Of a stretch of 64,000 bases of DNA, positions 21,676-56,597 are shown piece after piece. Below the pieces are notes generated by a model. The model was given only the letters and a program-made list of their open reading frames with translations, was not told where the DNA came from and made no database searches. The stretch is from the NCBI GenBank assembly GCA_008692225.1, contig VICG01000001.1, forward strand, positions 3,077,501-3,141,500. The letters are read 5' to 3'. Origin of the DNA: Monilinia fructicola (Eukaryota; Ascomycota; Leotiomycetes; Helotiales; Sclerotiniaceae). Every line of letters begins with the position of its first letter. Positions within the stretch are counted from its first letter, which is position 1. A program made the translations under genes and the position numbers.

Positions 21676-22117
21676 TTTGATGAGAAATACGAAAATTGAC
21701 GCTTTGGACCGCTTGACACCGGGAGTTATAGTTCATTAAGGTTGCTATAGGCAAAGTTTGTTTACTTTATAATTAGTGATATTGACAGCGGAGAGGTACA
21801 AGTAGCGCCAGGCCCACTAGCGCCTCATGTGAATTTAGTGGCCTCGCGTTAAACCTTAATTTTGCGAATTTTGGAAACTTGAGAGACCTCTCGAATTGAT
21901 ATCAAAATACCCTTTGTCACGGCGTCCATTAATTTTCTTTGCATTACTTCTTTGATTTATCAATGTATTGGAGATAAGTTCCATAATTCATGGTTTGAGA
22001 GAATCACTTCAGATGACTTGAAAACTCTCTTACAGCGATCTAATACCGATTTCTTCTCGATATTTGCCATAACAAACTTCAGCCTTTCTCACACCGTAAA
22101 TTGAACAAATTACCATA
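21676..22117. promoter_or_regulatory. Shared divergent promoter, coiled-coil gene / BRR2
   Basis: 442 bp between the outward-facing starts at 21675 and 22118. AT-rich with pyrimidine tracts just upstream of BRR2 (about 22045-22095). Bidirectional use is inferred from geometry only. Confidence 0.5.
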
Positions 22118-25100
22118 ATGACGGACCAACAGCGCGATGTATCGCAGTATAAATATGCGGCGATGTCCAACCTGGTTCTCCAGGCGGATCGTCGATTTGT
22201 TACTCGCCGTAATGACGAGGTGACTGGAGATCCAGAATCACTGGCGGGGCAAATCAGTATTCGAGATATGGGTTCGAGAAACGCCCGTGAGAACGCGCCG
22301 AAACAGAAAAAGAAAGCTTCGGGACTTCCAGATGTTGAGAGGGGAGGTTACCGCGAAGGTGAGGATGTTTTGGAAAGAGAACAGCGCAAACGCAAGCGTG
22401 GAGAGCCAGCACAACTCCGGGGAACTGGAATACTGTCAGCAGCGGATGCATTAGTTGAGGGAATTCGATACAGACCTAGGACTTCGGCGACGCGAGCAAC
22501 CTATGACCTTCTTCTAACTACAGTCGCCAACAATCTTGGAGATGTCCCACATGAAGTTGTGCGAAGTGCCACGGATGCTGTGTTGGAGTATCTAAAAGAT
22601 GACGATATGAAAGATTTCGATAAGAAGAAGGAAATCGATGATCTGTTAGGCGCCAGTATGAATCCGAAGCAGTTCAACGAGCTTGTGAATCTAGGAAAAA
22701 AGATTACAGATTACGACGCGCAGGACGAAGACGAAGAGATGGCAGATGGAGATAACGGGGGCGAAAATGGCGCAGAGATAGACGATCGCCAGGGAGTAGC
22801 AGTCGTGTTCGATGACAATTCCGAAGATGAGGGTGATGAGATGCTTAATGAAATCAGGGATGAGTCCTCCGAAGATGAAGATGATGCTCAAGATCGTCCT
22901 GGTGATGAGGAAGTCGCTACGGCTGGTGGCGCTGGAAACGATAGAGACGAAGAATCTCAGGAACTACCCGAAGAAGAAGCAATAATTATGGACTCAGGCT
23001 CTATGCAAAATGCCGACTCAGCTAAAGAAAAGAAAGACTTCATACCCGCGCGCGAAATTGATGCATATTGGCTGCAACGGCAAATAGGATCAGTATATAC
23101 AGACGCCCATTTACAACAGCTTAAGACACAGGAAGTACTGCACACACTCTCTGGCGCCCCTGCCGAAGAGGGTGGGGATGAAAAGCCCCTTAGAGAAATC
23201 GAAAATGACCTCGCTGAATTGTTTGATTATGAGCACCATGAGCTCGTACATAAGCTCATCGCAAACCGGGACAAGGTAGTCTGGCTTACTCGTCTAGCTC
23301 GAGCTGAAGATGCCGAAGCTCGAGGTGTTGTCGAACGTGAAATTGCTTCGGAGGGACTGCGATGGATTTTGGATGAGCTTCGTGGAGGCGTACCCGGCGA
23401 TGGATCAAAGAAGAGGAGACTGGAAATGAAGATGGACATTGACGTTCCAGCGGAATACATCAATGGCAGTACCAAGAATGAGCAAAAAGACGGAGATGGT
23501 TTAGTTGGTGGACTACAACCGCGAAAGCTCATTAATCTTGAAAATCTTGTCTTTGATCAAGGCAATCACTTGATGACCAACCCCAAGGTCAAATTGCCAG
23601 AGGGATCTACCAAGCGAACATTCAAAGGATACGAAGAGATTCACGTGCCCCCTCCTAAAAAGCGCAACGATCCCTCGGATCGTGATATCCCAGTTACGGA
23701 AATGCCTGAATGGGCACGAGTTCCATTCTCATCTACAGTCAAACTCAATAAGATACAATCGCAATGCTTTCCGACAGCTTTTGAAGACGACGGTAATATG
23801 CTTATTTGCGCGCCTACTGGAAGTGGCAAGACCAATGTTGGCATGTTGACTATATTACGAGAAATCGGCAAAAATCGCAATCCAGAAACCGGAGAAATCA
23901 ATTTGGATGCTTTCAAAATTGTTTATATAGCGCCTCTCAAAGCTTTGGTGCAAGAACAAGTTGGAAATTTCGGCGCTAGACTCAAGCCATATGGAATCAA
24001 AGTTTCTGAATTGACTGGAGATCGTCAACTCACAAAGCAACAGATCGCTGATACCCAGATCATCGTGACAACCCCCGAAAAATGGGATGTTATCACTAGG
24101 AAAGCTACTGACTTGAGTTACACTAACTTGGTCCGCCTCATCATCATTGACGAGATTCATCTTTTGCACGATGATCGTGGACCTGTATTAGAAAGTATTG
24201 TGAGTAGGACGCTTAGAAAGATGGAGCAGACCGGCGATCCTGTTCGTTTGATAGGTCTTTCTGCGACATTGCCAAATTACCGTGATGTTGCAAGCTTTTT
24301 ACGTGTTGATCCTCTCAAAGGCATGTTTTCACTTCGATGGTTCATACCGTCCCTGCCCACTCCGCCAGGAATTCGTTGGCATAACAGAGAAGAAAGCTAT
24401 TAAGCAACTGAAGACTATGAATGACGTGACTTATACCAAGGTTTTGGAGCATGTAGGAACGAATAGAAATCAGATGATTATCTTTGTGCACTCCCGCAAG
24501 GAAACTGCAAAAACAGCTAGATATATTCGAGATAAAGCTTTGGAAATGGAAACAATAGGGCAAATTTTACGGAGTGATGTGTCGGGGACTCGAGAGACTC
24601 TTGCTTCTGAAGCAGAGGAGGTCAGCGATCGAGAGCTTAAGGATTTGCTACCCTACGGCTTCGGAATACATCACGCTGGTATGAACAGACCAGATCGAAC
24701 ATCTGTCGAGGAACTTTTTCATGAAGGATTGATTCAGGTTCTTGTCTGTACTGCTACATTGGCATGGGGTGTCAATCTACCAGCGCATACTGTCATTATT
24801 AAAGGAACCCAAGTATATTCCCCTGAGAAAGGCAGTTGGGTGGAATTGAGTCCTCAGGATGTACTCCAGATGCTTGGACGCGCTGGTCGGCCACAATACG
24901 ACACTTATGGAGAAGGTATCATCATCACAACCCAGAACGAAATGCAGTATTATCTGTCACTTCTGAATCAACAGTTACCGATCGAGAGTCAGTTTGTTAG
25001 CAGGTTGGTGGACAATTTAAATGCAGAGGTTGTTCTTGGCAATGTCCGTAGTCGAGATGAAGGTGTGGAGTGGTTAGGATACACCTACCTATTCGTTCGA

Positions 25101-28100
25101 ATGCTGCGATCTCCTGGGTTGTACAGCGTGGGAGCCGATTATGAAGACGACACTGCCCTTGAGCAAAAACGAGTCGATTTGATTCATTCTGCTGCTATGG
25201 TTCTTGAGAAGTCTAACCTCATAAAATATGACAAGAAGACTGGAAAACTACAAGCAACCGAGCTTGGTAGAATTGCGTCGCATTATTACATTACGCACAA
25301 CTCTATGCTGACTTACAACCACCACCTCCAACCATCAATCACGCCAATCGAGCTTTTCAGGGTGTTTGCATTGAGCGACGAATTCAAGTACATCCCAGTT
25401 CGCCAGGAGGAAAAATTGGAGCTGGCCAAACTTCTAGGACGTGTGCCCATACCCGTCAAAGAAAGTGTTGAGGAACCTCATGCCAAGATAAATGTACTTT
25501 TGCAGGCTTACGTCTCAAGATTGAAATTGGATGGACTTGCGTTAATGGCAGATCTTGTCTACGTCACTCAGTCAGCTGGAAGAATCTTGCGTGCAATCTT
25601 CGAAATCACTCTTAAAAAGGGATGGTCATCAGTAGCCAAGACTGCCTTGGAGCTTTGCAAGATGGCGGAGAAGCGTATGTGGCCAACTATGTCACCACTT
25701 CGACAATTTGCCGGATGTCCCAGGGACATCATACAAAAGGCCGAAAGGATTGACGTTTCATGGGCCAACTATTTTGATCTAGATCCACCACGTATGGGTG
25801 AATTGCTAGGCCTTCCGAAAGCTGGCCGAACTGTCTGTAACCTTGTTGCAAAGTTTCCACGACTAGAAGTCCAGGCACAAGTACAACCAATGACGAGGTC
25901 AATGTTGAGAGTAGAATTGACTATCACGCCCAAATTTGAGTGGGATGACGAAGTCCATGGAACAGCTGAAAGCTTTTGGATCATAGCTGAAGATTGTGAC
26001 GGCGAAGACATACTTTTCCATGACCAATTCATCCTTCGTAAAGATTTTGCTCAAGCTGAGATAAATGAGCATCTTGTCGAATTTACGGTCCCCATCACAG
26101 AGCCCATGCCTCCACATTATTTTATAACCGTCGTATCAGACCGATGGATGAATTGTGAAACCAAGCTTGCAGTCTCTTTCCAGAAACTCATTTTGCCTGA
26201 AAAGTTTCCACCTCATACACCGCTGTTGGACTTGCAGCCTTTACCCGTTGCAGCATTGAAGACTGACGAGTTTAAATCATTATACCCGGATTGGGATCGC
26301 TTCAACAAAATCCAAACACAAACATTCAAATCCCTTTTTGACACGGACGATAATGTATTTGTTGGAGCGCCCACAGGCAGCGGCAAGACTGTTTGCGCTG
26401 AGTTTGCGTTGCTTCATCACTGGACAAAAAACGACCCAGGACGTGCTGTCTATATCGCACCATTCCAGGAACTCGTTGATCTTCGTCTCCAAGATTGGCA
26501 GAAACGTTTTTCCAACATCCGCGGAGGCAAAGAAATCTTGAAGCTTACAGGTGAAACCACCGCTGACCTCAAAGTATTAGAGAGGGGTGATTTGATCCTT
26601 GCCACACCTACTCAATGGGATGTTCTATCGCGACAATGGCAACGTCGGAAGAATGTCCAGAACGTTCAGCTCTTTATTGCGGATGAGCTGCATATGCTTG
26701 GTGGACAGGCTGGTTTTGTTTACGAAACCATTGTCTCTCGTATGCATTATATCCGATCACAAACAGAATTGCCACTGCGAATAGTAGGATTGAGCGTTTC
26801 TCTTGCGAATGCTCGTGATATTGGAGAGTGGATAGATGCGAAGAAGCACAATATCTATAACTTTAGTCCTCATGTCCGTTCAGTGCCTCTGGAGCTTCAT
26901 ATTCAGTCATTTACCATTCCTCATTTCCCCTCTCTCATGCTTGCTATGGCGAAGCCAACGTATCTTGCCATAAATCAGATGTCGCCAGACAAGCCTGCTC
27001 TTGTATTTGTTCCTAGTAGAAAGCAAGCTCGCGCCACGACTCGTGATTTACTCTTGGCATGCGTAGCTAGCGATGACGAAGATCGCTTCCTGCACGCTGA
27101 TGTAGAGGCGATGAAGCCCTTGTTGGAACGTATTCAAGAAGAAGCGCTTGCAGAAGCCATCTCGCATGGCATAGGCTATTATCATGAGGCTCTTAGTACG
27201 AGTGATAAACGTATTGTGAAACATCTATACGACAATGGTGCCATACAAGTCATGGTTGCGTCTCGCGATGTTTGCTGGGAACTTGATTGCAAAGCACATC
27301 TGGTTATTGTGATGGGTACACAGTTCTATGAAGGCAGGGAACATCGCTATGTTGATTATCCTCTTAGCGAGATCCTACAAATGTTCGGTAGAGCAACACG
27401 CCCCATGGAAGACAAAATTAGTAAGGGTGTCCTGATGGTGCCAGCGGTGAAGAGAGAGTACTACAAAAAGTTCTTGAATGAGGCCCTTCCAATTGAGAGT
27501 CATCTTCATGTGTATCTGCATGATGCTTTTGTGTCAGAGATCAGTACAAAAATGATTGAATCCGCGAGCGATGCCATCAATTGGACTACCTTCACTTACT
27601 TCTATAGAAGATTACTTGCAAACCCTAGCTACTATAGTCTCAAGGACACATCGCATGAGGGCCTCAGTGCACACCTCTCGGAGCTTGTAGAAACAACTTT
27701 GAAAGATTTGGCTGAGTTCAAGATCATTGATTTGGATGAAGAGGATGATTCTGTCACTCCACTAAACGCAGCAATGATTGCTGCTTATTATAACATCTCA
27801 TATATCACCATGCAGACATTTTTACTGTCATTGACTGGCCGTACCAAGCTCAAGGGTATCCTAGAAATTGTCACTTCAGCAACTGAGTTCGAGTCAATTC
27901 AGATTAGACGACACGAAGATAGCCTACTGCGCAGAGTATATGATAGGCTTCCCGTCAAGATGGCTCAGCCAAGCTTTGATTCTCCGCACTTTAAGGCATT
28001 TGTGCTTCTTCAAGCCCATTTCTCAAGAATGCAGCTACCAATTGACCTTGCTAAAGATCAAGAGATTATCCTGACGAAAGTCCTTGGCCTCTTGAGTGCT

Positions 28101-28847
28101 ACCGTCGATGTCCTATCCTCTGATGGTCATATCAACGCCATGAATGCCATGGAAATGTCGCAAATGGTTGTACAGGGCATGTGGGATCGCGACAGTCCTT
28201 TGAAACAGATTCCTCATTTCAAGCCTGAGGTCATCAAAGCAGCAAATGAATCTGGGTATGTTTTAGATCGTCGCACTGATTTGGTACCTCCGCTAACAAA
28301 ACGTGTCTCCAGTATCAAGGATATCTTCGAGTTTATGGATGCGATGGACCCTTCCGAAAACCCAGACTACGAAGCTCTCGTCAAACGACTCGGTCTTTCG
28401 CAAACACAGCTAGCACAGGCAGCGAATTTTACGAATTCTAAATATCCTAACATTGAGCTTGACTTTGAAGTGGAGGATCCGGAAGAAATTGTAGCTGGAT
28501 CACCAGCTTATATTAAAATCAAGATTGCACGAGATATTGACGAGGATGATGATGCGACAGAGGTGGACATGTCTGTACATGCTCCCTTCTATCCCGTGAA
28601 GAAAATGGAAAATTGGTGGCTGGTTGTGGGCGATGAGGGTTCGAAAACTTTACTTGCGATCAAACGGGTTACGATCGGGAAAGCATTGAATCTTCGGCTG
28701 GAATATACCGTGCCAACACCTGGAGAACATGATTTAAAGTTGTTCCTCATGAGCGACAGTTATGTGGGTGTCGATCAGGACCCCAGTTTCCATGTCTCCG
28801 TGGCAGAAGGAATGGACGAAGATGAAGAAGACGAAGACGAAGAATAA
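22118..28847 (+). CDS. BRR2: Pre-mRNA splicing helicase Brr2 (U5 snRNP), one apparent frameshift
   Basis: Ski2-like RNA helicase that unwinds U4/U6 to activate the spliceosome, a U5 snRNP component. About 2242 aa (yeast and human are about 2,150), no introns. The acidic N-terminal extension (MTDQQRDVSQYKYAAMSNLV) precedes two helicase cassettes. Cassette 1 has Walker A APTGSGKT near residue 565 and DEIH near 677, with HHAGMNRPDR and QMLGRAGRPQYD. The degenerate C-terminal cassette has APTGSGKT near 1417 and DELH near 1522, with QMFGRATRP. Each is followed by a Sec63 unit, and the protein ends in an acidic tail (DEDEEDEDEE). The frame shifts at the TTTT run 24326-24329; three T's join LKGMF to HFDGSYRPCPLRQEF and make the CDS 6729 nt. 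Since Brr2 is essential, this is almost surely a sequence error. Confidence 0.95.
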
Positions 28848-53121: not shown

Positions 53122-54363
53122 ATGTCTAGCCTTGAAGCGGCTCCCTCGTCCTCAATCAGACGGGAAAGCCCCCCTCTATATCTTGGAACTTCTTCTGGAA
53201 GCTCTATTGCTGAGATCAGTACATCGATTTCTCCACTCCCATCTCCTTCTTTCGTTAGATATTTCAAGGGCTGTGCTGTACCACCCAAGCTAGTGGGTAT
53301 CTCGGAGGAGGCTGTACTTCAAAAGTTTGCTAAAATGACGCCAATAATGAAAGTGATTGGCAAGGGTAAAAGCTCGGAAGTTACGACCTTCACTCGACAT
53401 GAGGCGGTCCCTGGGCTGGTTGATATTTCAGATCCAACAGAAGCATTCGAGATTGGTAACTTTGTTTCTTTCAACATCCCCGTGTTTGCGTTAACTTGAT
53501 ATTCATTAGATACTCCTCATCCTGACGAATCGCCTATGACAACCATGCGCTCTGCCAGTTTAGGATCGATTCCTACCACCCAATGGGAAAAGCCAAAAGT
53601 CAAGGCATACAAGCCTTGTAGATCTATGGGGGATGAAGGGGCACGCAAGTCGAAACAGATGATTGAAAAGGAGAATGATGACATCTTTGAGGACGCAGAA
53701 GTCGAGCCACAATCTTGCGGTGAAACTTACGCGGAATTCAATACGGCACCATCATCGCCGATGAGACGTCTATCTGTGGCTGACAGACGCGATATGGATG
53801 GTCCTTATGACGACAGACCTAAATTTCCCTCGGGCGCGACTATGCAAGACTTTTGTGCCTTGCCAGATCATCTTCGAGGTCCTTGCTTTGAAGTGAGCCC
53901 GAGAACTAGCGTTTTGGATGGTCCACATGCCATCCCAAATATTGACAAAATTTTGGCTATGAGTAAGGGCGATGCCTCTGTGGAACCCTCACTCGTCAAA
54001 CCTCTCGAGGCATTGCAAGAAGTATTGTCAGAACCGTCGCCAAAAGCAACAGAAAACTGTATGGGGCAATCGGACGGGGCTACGCCTGCTCGAGCCATGG
54101 CGCCAGATGTTGGTGGTGATTCTCCAGTCCCAGAATTACCCGTCGACCCACTTGCAAAAGACAAAAAAGGGGAAAAACGTACACACAAAGCTATTAATAA
54201 GTTTCGATCGAGCATACGCAAAAGCAGGTATCGTTGTCTAAGAACACCGGTGCTTGTCGTCTTGGTAGGAAAAGAGCTTTCAAAACCAACCAGAGCGGCC
54301 ATTGAAAATATTGCAAGCGGACTTCCTTCAGGAATTAGTGATGTAAAGCCCCTTCCTGCGTGA
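53122..54363 (+). CDS. Largely disordered protein of unrecognised family
   Basis: 395 aa from two exons, intron 53456-53509 (54 nt, gtaac...ttag), 1188 nt in frame. It starts MSSLEAAPSSSIRRESPPLY. Many Ser/Pro and acidic stretches (SPLPSPSF, APSSPMRRLSVADR, ENDDIFEDAEVEPQ, SEPSPKATE) suggest a phosphorylated regulatory protein. A short conserved-looking block is SFVRYFKGCAVPPKLVGISE. The C-terminus is basic (RTHKAINKFRSSIRKSRYRC). An alternative 41-nt intron (about 54229-54269) would end the protein differently. No catalytic motif, signal peptide or membrane segment. I make no functional call. Confidence 0.6.
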
Positions 54364-55765
54364 CAGCGAAAGATGTCTTTGCGAATGAGGGCTAAATTTG
54401 TTAAGCTGGAACTCTCTTTATCTCCGTCGACTCCACGTCGGCACCTTCCGCAGCTTGAACGACTTACACCTATGCCTGTATCGGAGGCCAATTGTTGTGA
54501 GGATTTGGAGGGTTAAGTATAAGAACTTGGCAGTGGCTTCGTAGTAATGGGCATGGAGGAATGACAATGACCTATTAGAATGGATAGAATCATAGACCCT
54601 AATGCAAGGAATTTGTAAAATCGAGACAACAACCTGATGATTTGTAAAGTTCCTAATGATATGGAAGGCATGTCTCTAGTGAACTAATGCCATGCAATCA
54701 TACTCATTAACTAGAACTCGAAGGCGACATGCAAAAATAAGCTAGGCACACTTGGCCAGTGAAGCATAAAACGCAGGATCGAGTAAGCAAAAGCACTGAA
54801 ACTAAGATCCCACCAAAACCACTTTCTCCACAACCCAGAAGTTCACGGGGGAATTCTTCTTAGCTTTCTTATTTCCTATGGGCTGTGAGTCCTCAGCAGC
54901 GTTGGTAGGTCTGCTTACAATCCCGGCGACTTTCCATCCTCACAATCCACCGTGAGCAACAACCGGTGAGCCTCCACACCCACAACTTATCGGCCTGTCA
55001 AACCTCAAGATTTGGGCGTATTCGTCGGAAGTTGCTGAATATGTAGTTTGCAGCGTCCAGAACATACATGCACATTACACATTGAATCCTGTTTGTGGTT
55101 CACAGTGGTGTTATCGGGACTTGTAAGCTTGGAACGTATAGAACGATGTACATACTTGTAAAGTTGCATTATTGAAACGACTGACGAGATGAAGATGATG
55201 GATTTTATCTGTTGAGAGGAGGATTGGTGGTGAGGAGGTGAGCGAGCGGACTTATTACTGCTCGTCTAAGTAGAGGGGTGATTCGTTATAGTTCTACCTA
55301 GGTACGGACGCCATTGTTGTTTTTATATGAAATCTTAGAATCTATTTTTACAAATAATTATGATTAGAGGTATGGATACATCAATTTTGAATTATATACA
55401 TACATTATATAAGCAGTAGAGGATTCATAAGCATCACCACATCCTTCAAATTTGACAGTCAAATTGATAGCCAACGTATTACTTACTGTACAGCATGTAG
55501 ACAAAGTCTCTCAAACTCGTACAGTGCAGAGTCATTACATAATCATAATTAGACATCCCGACACCCCACCTACTGTTGTACTACTGTACGGCAACCCAGA
55601 AATCCCACCGCACCGCACGCCCCCCATCCCCACATCCACCAATCCCCATCTCGCAAGCCGTGCCTCCTGCTCTCGTCCCCGCCGTACCCCTGCAAAAAAA
55701 AGCTTGCACGCGGAACCCTCCAATATATATCGAAAAACCCTCGCTTGGTCCAACAAACATGCCAA
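54364..55765. other. Intergenic, with upstream elements of the tRNA gene at its right end
   Basis: 1.4 kb. The right edge has a TATATAT box (55724-55730) about 40 bp before the tRNA and a CAACAAAC motif (55751-55758) resembling CAA start elements of fungal tRNA genes. A CCTAGGTAC palindrome is near 55297. No gene is evident elsewhere. Confidence 0.55.
55724..55730 (+). promoter_or_regulatory. TATA-like box upstream of tRNA-Ile
   Basis: TATATAT lies 36-42 bp before the mature tRNA 5' end, a spacing seen for Pol III TATA elements upstream of tRNA genes in some fungi. This matters because the internal A box is split by an insertion. Confidence 0.5.
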
Positions 55766-55926
55766 ACTCCAGTGACGCGTAAGTTACTGCCTCCATTCCC
55801 AAATGAAGGTTCCTCAGGCTAATAGTGAAATTTATAGAGTGGTTAGCGTGTCGTTCTTATATTCTTCCCCTTGTGGATTAATATGAAGTTATGCGAAAGT
55901 CGTGGGTTCGACACCCACCTGGAGTA
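55766..55926 (+). tRNA. tRNA-Ile(UAU) with two introns, one inside the D arm
   Basis: Mature positions: acceptor ACTCCAG (55766-55772) pairs 7/7 with CTGGAGT (55919-55925), discriminator A at 55926. T8 G9, D stem ACGC (55775-55778) pairs 4/4 with GCGT (55846-55849), D loop AGTGGTTA (55838-55845, with A14, G15, G18, G19, A21). G26. Anticodon arm TCGTT (55851-55855), loop CTTATA plus A (55856-55861, 55891), anticodon TAT (55858-55860), stem TGCGA (four pairs including one wobble, U-U at 31-39). Variable AAGTC, T stem GTGGG/CCCAC 5/5, loop TTCGACA. Total 73 nt. Two interruptions: 55779-55837 (59 nt) between positions 13 and 14, and 55862-55890 (29 nt) after position 37, the normal eukaryotic site. 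A T8 Pol III terminator lies 27 nt downstream. Confidence 0.85.
55779..55837 (+). other. 59-nt spliceosomal-like intron in the D arm of the tRNA gene
   Basis: Begins GTAAGT, has CTAAT at 55819-55823 (branch A about 15 nt before the end) and finishes TTTATAG. These match the introns of nearby protein genes in length and signals. It separates tRNA positions 13 and 14; removing exactly this segment restores a 4-bp D stem and a canonical D loop. It also splits the Pol III A box. Confidence 0.75.
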
Positions 55927-55952
55927 TCAATTCCAGTTGACACCGGTACATA

Positions 55953-55960
55953 TTTTTTTT
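55953..55960 (+). terminator. Pol III T-run terminator
   Basis: Eight consecutive T's, 27 nt after the tRNA 3' end, long enough to stop RNA polymerase III. Confidence 0.7.
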
Positions 55961-56597
55961 GGACTTTTCCTTTTGGCGCCTCTTTGTTGGAATGTACTTC
56001 CTTTCAGGAGTGGAAGAGGATGATTGATTGGTGTTGGGGTCGGTTTGATTGATTTTTGGAATTGGGATTGGATTATGGCGCAGAGTAAGCGATGGGCCAT
56101 ATTCTGGCCGTCTCTTGGATTGCTGCGGTTACGTTTCCTTTCACCCTTCCAAACTGCATTTTTTTTAACAAGAAACGATATTTAAGCTGGACCCTTAGCT
56201 TCTACAACTTGAGATACAGATTTGCTAGACATATGGAGTACATCTATCACGTACAGAAGAAATCGGAACCAACTTCATTAGCAAATATGCATGGGTTGAA
56301 ATGTGTGAATAATAAGTGACCATACTTCCTCTGTTTACATACGAACAGTTTTGCGCCCCAAGTCGCCCGAGATAAACCAACGCTAGAATTAGGTATTTGG
56401 CAACCCGAAATTGATATAAATCTTGCTCAAGTGCACAATCAACTCCCCGATGCCTCATATTGGTCCATGTACCTCGATATACGCTTCTTCCTTGTACCAA
56501 AGAGACGTTTTAATGATATCACTCTCCCTCCCTGACATGAATCTCCCATCTTTTCCCCATCTTACCGCCTAACCCACCAACTCCATGACTCAAGACC
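55961..56597. other. Intergenic between the tRNA and the copper transporter 3' end
   Basis: 637 bases, no gene seen. The right side is the 3' flank of the minus-strand transporter gene. Confidence 0.5.

Follow-up and report, generated by a model that had tools for sequence, protein, structure and literature searches.

The window analysed here is a stretch of 64,000 nucleotides (C1:3077501-3141500) from a 20-contig genome that totals 44,028,109 bases, and it carries on its plus strand a gene for tRNA-Ile(UAU), copy 1, which is split into three exons by two introns of different kinds. ARAGORN, run on the locus without its larger insert, together with a table of base pairs, places tRNA positions 1-13 in exon 1 (55766..55778), positions 14-37 with the anticodon TAT in exon 2 (55838..55861) and positions 38-73 in exon 3 (55891..55926). 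The second and third exon are separated by a canonical 29-nt intron at 37/38 (55862..55890). The first and second are separated, between positions 13 and 14 and thus within the D arm, by an intron of 59 nt (55779..55837) of the mRNA (U2) type, which reads GTAAGT ... CTAAT ... TATAG and whose branch-site-like CTAAT (55819..55823) puts the branch A 15 nt from the 3' end. This intron splits the A box, and the sequence GGTTCGACACC (55905..55915), the B box by its consensus, is uninterrupted. A TATA box lies upstream (55724..55730, at -42 and -40 from the mature 5' end), followed by a leader, CAAACATGCCAAAC (55754..55767), which is kept in a second copy of the gene described below and whose last two bases in copy 1 already belong to the tRNA, as its positions 1-2. 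Downstream is a terminator-like run of eight T (55953..55960), the first run of at least four T after the gene start. The earlier note had likewise described a broken A box with TATA box and T8 retained.

It had also been claimed that the tRNA is visible only after removal of 55779-55837, and this proved to be the case. ARAGORN, run with introns allowed, called nothing in the 281-nt locus as it stands; once the 59 nt had been taken out, it called a tRNA-Ile(tat) of 73 nt and placed a 29-nt intron at 37-38, which agrees with the standard intron reported earlier. In its bacterial setting without the intron option ARAGORN called no tRNA across the whole window. Rfam gave no matches in the window at gathering scores, and a permissive scan of 55600-56050 returned no tRNA match and one sub-threshold match to YrlA (21.7 bits vs 69). 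Without the insert, copy 1 has 7/7 pairs in the acceptor, 4/4 in the D stem and 5/5 in the T stem, the tertiary pairs 8-14, 15-48, 18-55 and 19-56, an A-U pair at 10-25, the invariant bases and the anticodon UAU. The cloverleaf had been called perfect, which is true for these three stems but not for the anticodon stem, where we found one wobble pair, U30-G40, and one mismatch, U31.U39. A junction shifted by one base gives a different mature sequence.

As a control, segments of the form GT[AG]NGN..CTRAY..YAG and 45-120 nt long were removed on both strands and a tRNA call was sought across the new junction. In the window a tRNA resulted from 1 of 103 such segments, namely 55779-55837. No tRNA was obtained from 160 segments spread over 65 further genomic loci (L002-L066, which include copy 2, a gene that fails the ARAGORN default threshold), from 36,301 segments in 300 Markov windows, or from the 22 matches to GTAAGT..AG-NRTGGTTAGCG that scans of viral and prokaryote contigs gave in 21 viral contigs and one bacterial contig. 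On these controls and the existence of the second copy we reject a cloverleaf formed by chance. An assembly error is unlikely, since an independent locus shares the structure with a different insert sequence. Group I and group II introns are longer than 54-59 nt, the size of the two inserts, and were rejected for that reason.

The second copy was the one further locus found by a DNA search of the genome (G000:C4:57381-57559, minus strand; L002 and L066) and is 69% identical to copy 1. It has an insert of 54 nt at the same place between positions 13 and 14, with GTAAGT, CTAAT (branch A 14 nt before the end) and CACAG, its own anticodon-loop intron, again 29 nt at 37/38, and a run of six T (T6) downstream. 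This copy sits about 57 kb from a contig end. Bases of the splice signals are identical between the copies at 13/13 positions, compared with 17/41 for the other aligned insert bases (Fisher p 1.1e-4); two other alignment settings gave 12/12 for the splice signals and 18/42 for the rest of the insert (p 2.5e-4). The spliced tRNAs show 11 differences at positions 4-73, four of them in loops, and no pair is broken by any of these 11. Three pairs are doubly compensated (copy 1/copy 2), 6:67 (A-T/G-C), 30:40 (T-G/A-T) and 15:48 (G-C/A-T), and the difference at position 39 turns U.U into U-G. When the differences were placed at random, at least three compensations arose in 47 of 200,000 draws, and in 8 of 200,000 this happened without a broken pair. 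Base 15 is the second base 3' of the insert, and for this reason the compensation at 15:48 speaks for exact removal of the insert. The anatomy, its recurrence in two diverged copies, the conserved splice signals and the compensated tRNA pairs are all established directly from the DNA. Together with the insert-removal calls they support the central claim of the earlier note, a tRNA-Ile(UAU) gene with a spliceosomal-type intron in the D arm in addition to a canonical one. Copy 2 itself may be a decaying gene, because its acceptor positions 1-3 are unpaired, it falls below the ARAGORN default threshold and its leader contains extra CAAACATG repeats; its Rfam tRNA match is also sub-threshold (20 bits vs 29).

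An intact tRNA-Ile(UAU) gene with a single intron had been named as a possible counter-example; patterns run over the genome revealed none, and the second insert-bearing copy was found instead. A pattern combining D loop and anticodon loop, with at most one mismatch, matched 18 places (37 in the backwards control): the two copies, which were the only mismatch-free ones, 13 other tRNAs according to ARAGORN and three places without tRNA likeness. An unbroken A box combined with CTTAT matched 19 places (control 34), three of which are tRNAs by ARAGORN and none of them UAU; both patterns could miss a UAU gene if its D arm is unusual. The Rfam tRNA model (RF00005), with candidates partly scored, gave 63 places and no UAU call in L003-L065, where some of the ARAGORN anticodon calls look doubtful. 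When the genome was searched with the joined 73-mer, the exons of copy 1 were the sole matches; copy 2 was missed, which makes this a weak search. Similarly split tRNAs were sought with CTAAYN{4,13}YAGNRTGGTTAG, a pattern covering one D-loop type, and in the whole genome only the two copies matched (three matches in the backwards control).

Both loci could in principle be pseudogenes, descended from an ancestral gene that gained an intron-like insert and now unused, with AUA being read by tRNA-Ile(AAU) via inosine. Genes for tRNA-Ile(AAU) are indeed called by ARAGORN in this genome, the broken acceptor pairs of copy 2 and the imperfect anticodon stem of copy 1 would fit such a fate, and a review describes insertions in D and T arms of eukaryotic tRNA genes as lying, for the most part, in a single gene out of many synonymous ones, and as supposed pseudogenes (PMC4090602). 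In this genome, by contrast, the insert is present in both UAU copies found and not in one gene among many. Splice signals and tRNA pairs have been kept despite the divergence of intron interiors and flanks, T-runs have been kept in both copies and a TATA box in copy 1. AUA codons are also in use: the stop-to-stop frame bearing most of BRR2 has 93 Ile codons, of which 16 are AUA. All this makes disuse of both loci an unlikely explanation. Proteins of Botrytis and Sclerotinia match the frame 24255-28847 of the window at 95% identity, and the frame is related to BRR2, a spliceosomal helicase; the frame upstream of it, 22100-24403, probably contains the start of the BRR2-like gene.

The two inserts have the make-up of U2-type introns. 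GTAAGT agrees in both copies with the 5' splice site GTRNGT, CTAAT agrees in both with the fungal branch site CTRAY, and the 3' ends, TAG in copy 1 and CAG in copy 2, agree with YAG. Their lengths are usual for this organism, in which the U6 segment described below measures 53 nt. A search for mRNA introns in the window, by a reading-frame method working from sequence only, brought 13 of 82 groups to the cut-off; nine of these 13 likely introns measure 47-62 nt and have their branch A 9-13 nt from the end. The remaining four groups are doubtful, one of them being the antisense of the tRNA-Ile(UAU) locus. The resemblance in length to these likely mRNA introns is thus informative. The signals, for which a resemblance had been proposed before, are alike too, although this likeness is partly built in, because the intron score itself rewards GTAAGT and CTRAY, and the branch A of the tRNA inserts, at 15 and 14 nt, lies slightly farther from the end than in the likely mRNA introns.

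A different view would be that the D-arm insert is cut out by the tRNA splicing endonuclease, working away from its canonical site in the way reported for Cyanidioschyzon. Introns of that kind exist in algae (PMC4090602, PMC3978253), and the tRNA endonuclease domain family has one match in this genome. The insert at 13/14 is away from 37/38, the usual eukaryotic endonuclease position, which in both genes is occupied by the separate 29-nt intron, and the conserved part of the insert consists of mRNA splice signals. When pairs of a BHB motif were counted at 13/14, the strict motif was absent from both copies, each having 2/4 in the central and 1/3 in the outer helix, with 2/3 (copy 1) and 0/3 (copy 2) in the inner one; a shift by two gives 4 and 3 central pairs, without an outer pair, and would alter the mature tRNA. 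The count has little power and separates poorly, because under the same strict geometry the canonical 37/38 site of copy 1 also reaches only 2/4 central pairs (4/4 in copy 2). Cutting by the endonuclease at 13/14 seems to us decidedly improbable.

With regard to transcription, we compared both copies with 69 tRNA genes of the same genome, that is the ARAGORN calls in L003-L065, from which repeats had been dropped, as had any gene lying no more than 100 bases from the end of its locus. TATA[AT] occurs at -50..-20 in 31/69 of these genes and in 6/64 stretches 300 bases farther upstream, and the TATA of copy 1 falls within this usual range. The 80 bases upstream of copy 2 contain no TATA[AT]; its TTAAATATCC aligns with the place of the TATA in copy 1. 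The first run of at least four T downstream of the 69 genes lies at a median of 15 and a maximum of 64 nt, and neither copy has such a run before its terminator. In all seven Gln tRNA genes listed (L003-L065) the first such run comes only 52-64 nt downstream. On balance the signals of copy 1, with B box, TATA and T8 present and the A box interrupted by the intron, fit Pol III. That Pol II transcribes the gene within a longer RNA, which undergoes mRNA splicing before being cut down to the tRNA, is very improbable: a split A box makes for a weaker internal Pol III promoter and Pol II transcripts are the normal substrates of the spliceosome, but the TATA of copy 1 is where tRNA genes usually have it, its B box is intact, T8 and T6 runs lie 3' of the genes with no T4+ run inside, and the nearest frame in our listing, which holds frames of at least 220 aa, ends at 54363.

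Introns of the mRNA type are known in the Pol III-transcribed U6 snRNA genes of fungi, S. pombe and others, and U6 of this fungus appears to be such a case. The sole U6 match above the cut-off in Rfam, with candidates partly scored, is at G000:C3:2172348-2172450 on the minus strand (L109, 84 bits), and its 5' bases match weakly and with gaps. Near this 5' end is a 53-nt segment, GTAAGT...CTAAC...TTAG. The upstream GCC-TTCG-GGC-ATT, read on into TGGTCAATTTGAAAC, resembles the expected start of U6, and from known U6 sequences we take it to be exon 1; what the Rfam model aligns as the 5' stem-loop seems to be intron sequence. The gene has a TATA upstream and T7 downstream. Since U6 is a Pol III RNA and apparently intron-bearing, the spliceosome of this fungus probably already acts on one Pol III transcript. 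The tRNA genes resemble fungal U6 genes in having a short GT..branch..AG intron within a non-coding RNA gene of the Pol III type, together with TATA and T-run. They differ from them in that the host is a tRNA, which also needs end trimming, tRNA endonuclease and ligase, and in that the A box is split.

In our opinion this is likely a functional nuclear Pol III gene for tRNA-Ile(UAU), from which the spliceosome would remove the D-arm intron before the endonuclease acts and whose tRNA would decode AUA. The earlier note had left several routes open. Among them, splicing of a Pol III transcript by the spliceosome is favoured by the TATA, the terminator, the conserved splice signals and the apparent U6 intron; the endonuclease is disfavoured, although the structural test of it had little power. 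Pol III would make a primary transcript with a leader and two introns of different class, and the nuclear spliceosome would excise the U2-type intron of 54-59 nt between positions 13 and 14, restoring the D arm. The restored tRNA body would then permit end trimming, modification, export and the action of the tRNA endonuclease, which with the ligase would take out the 29-nt anticodon-loop intron, and the mature tRNA would read AUA. This order is proposed because the endonuclease needs the tRNA body, Sen54 being reported to contact the D arm (PMC4090602). We infer that Pol III transcribes the gene, that the D-arm intron is excised by the spliceosome, in which order the steps follow and that the tRNA serves in translation. 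We also lean, with less assurance, towards an AUA-specific tRNA that is wholly spliceosome-dependent, the spliceosome coming first and the endonuclease second, which would tie the decoding of a codon to mRNA splicing. The unpaired acceptor positions 1-3 of copy 2 and its lack of TATA[AT], the U31.U39 and the U-G pair of copy 1, the split A box and the slightly long distance from branch A to the 3' end are points against this functional Pol III reading.

The introns of nuclear tRNAs and those of mRNAs are commonly viewed as separate worlds, each with its own machine. We rate the arrangement described here as joining two known kinds, ectopic tRNA introns and mRNA-type introns in Pol III genes. 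Introns in the D arm and elsewhere in the tRNA, sometimes more than one per gene, are described for Cyanidioschyzon merolae and for nucleomorphs (PMC4090602, PMC3978253), and in both respects those genes are like ours. The C. merolae introns form a BHB and are cut by the tRNA endonuclease, and the Guillardia theta nucleomorph has introns of 3-24 nt that are unexplained, whereas the inserts in this fungus are 54-59 nt long with mRNA splice signals. To our knowledge tRNA-Ile(UAU) of S. cerevisiae has the canonical intron only, so that the same isoacceptor, with an anticodon-loop intron in both organisms, has a second intron of another class in its D arm here. That anticodon-loop intron of S. cerevisiae is needed for Pus1 modification of U34 and U36 (PMC4090602). 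Among the matches listed in a search of open-licence literature, seen as titles and starts of abstracts, no spliceosomal intron was described in a nuclear tRNA gene, which is weak evidence of absence. The spliceosome is probably needed to make this tRNA, and among tRNAs such a need would be highly unusual.

If this is true, a U2-type intron breaks the D arm, the A box and the tertiary core, so that both machines would be needed in a set order, and the spliceosome would be able to act on a Pol III pre-tRNA. One isoacceptor would then be a readout of splicing capacity. Standard tools can miss such an isoacceptor, as ARAGORN and the Rfam tRNA model were silent on both genes at their thresholds, and for that reason other fungi seemingly without tRNA-Ile(UAU) could conceal the same arrangement.

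As to further non-coding RNAs of this genome, SRP RNA matched model positions 1-293 over 281 nt, and with this coverage no intron is apparent in it. The match to RNase P RNA (L137, G000:C2:1563118-1563525) spans 408 nt, compared with a model of 301 positions.
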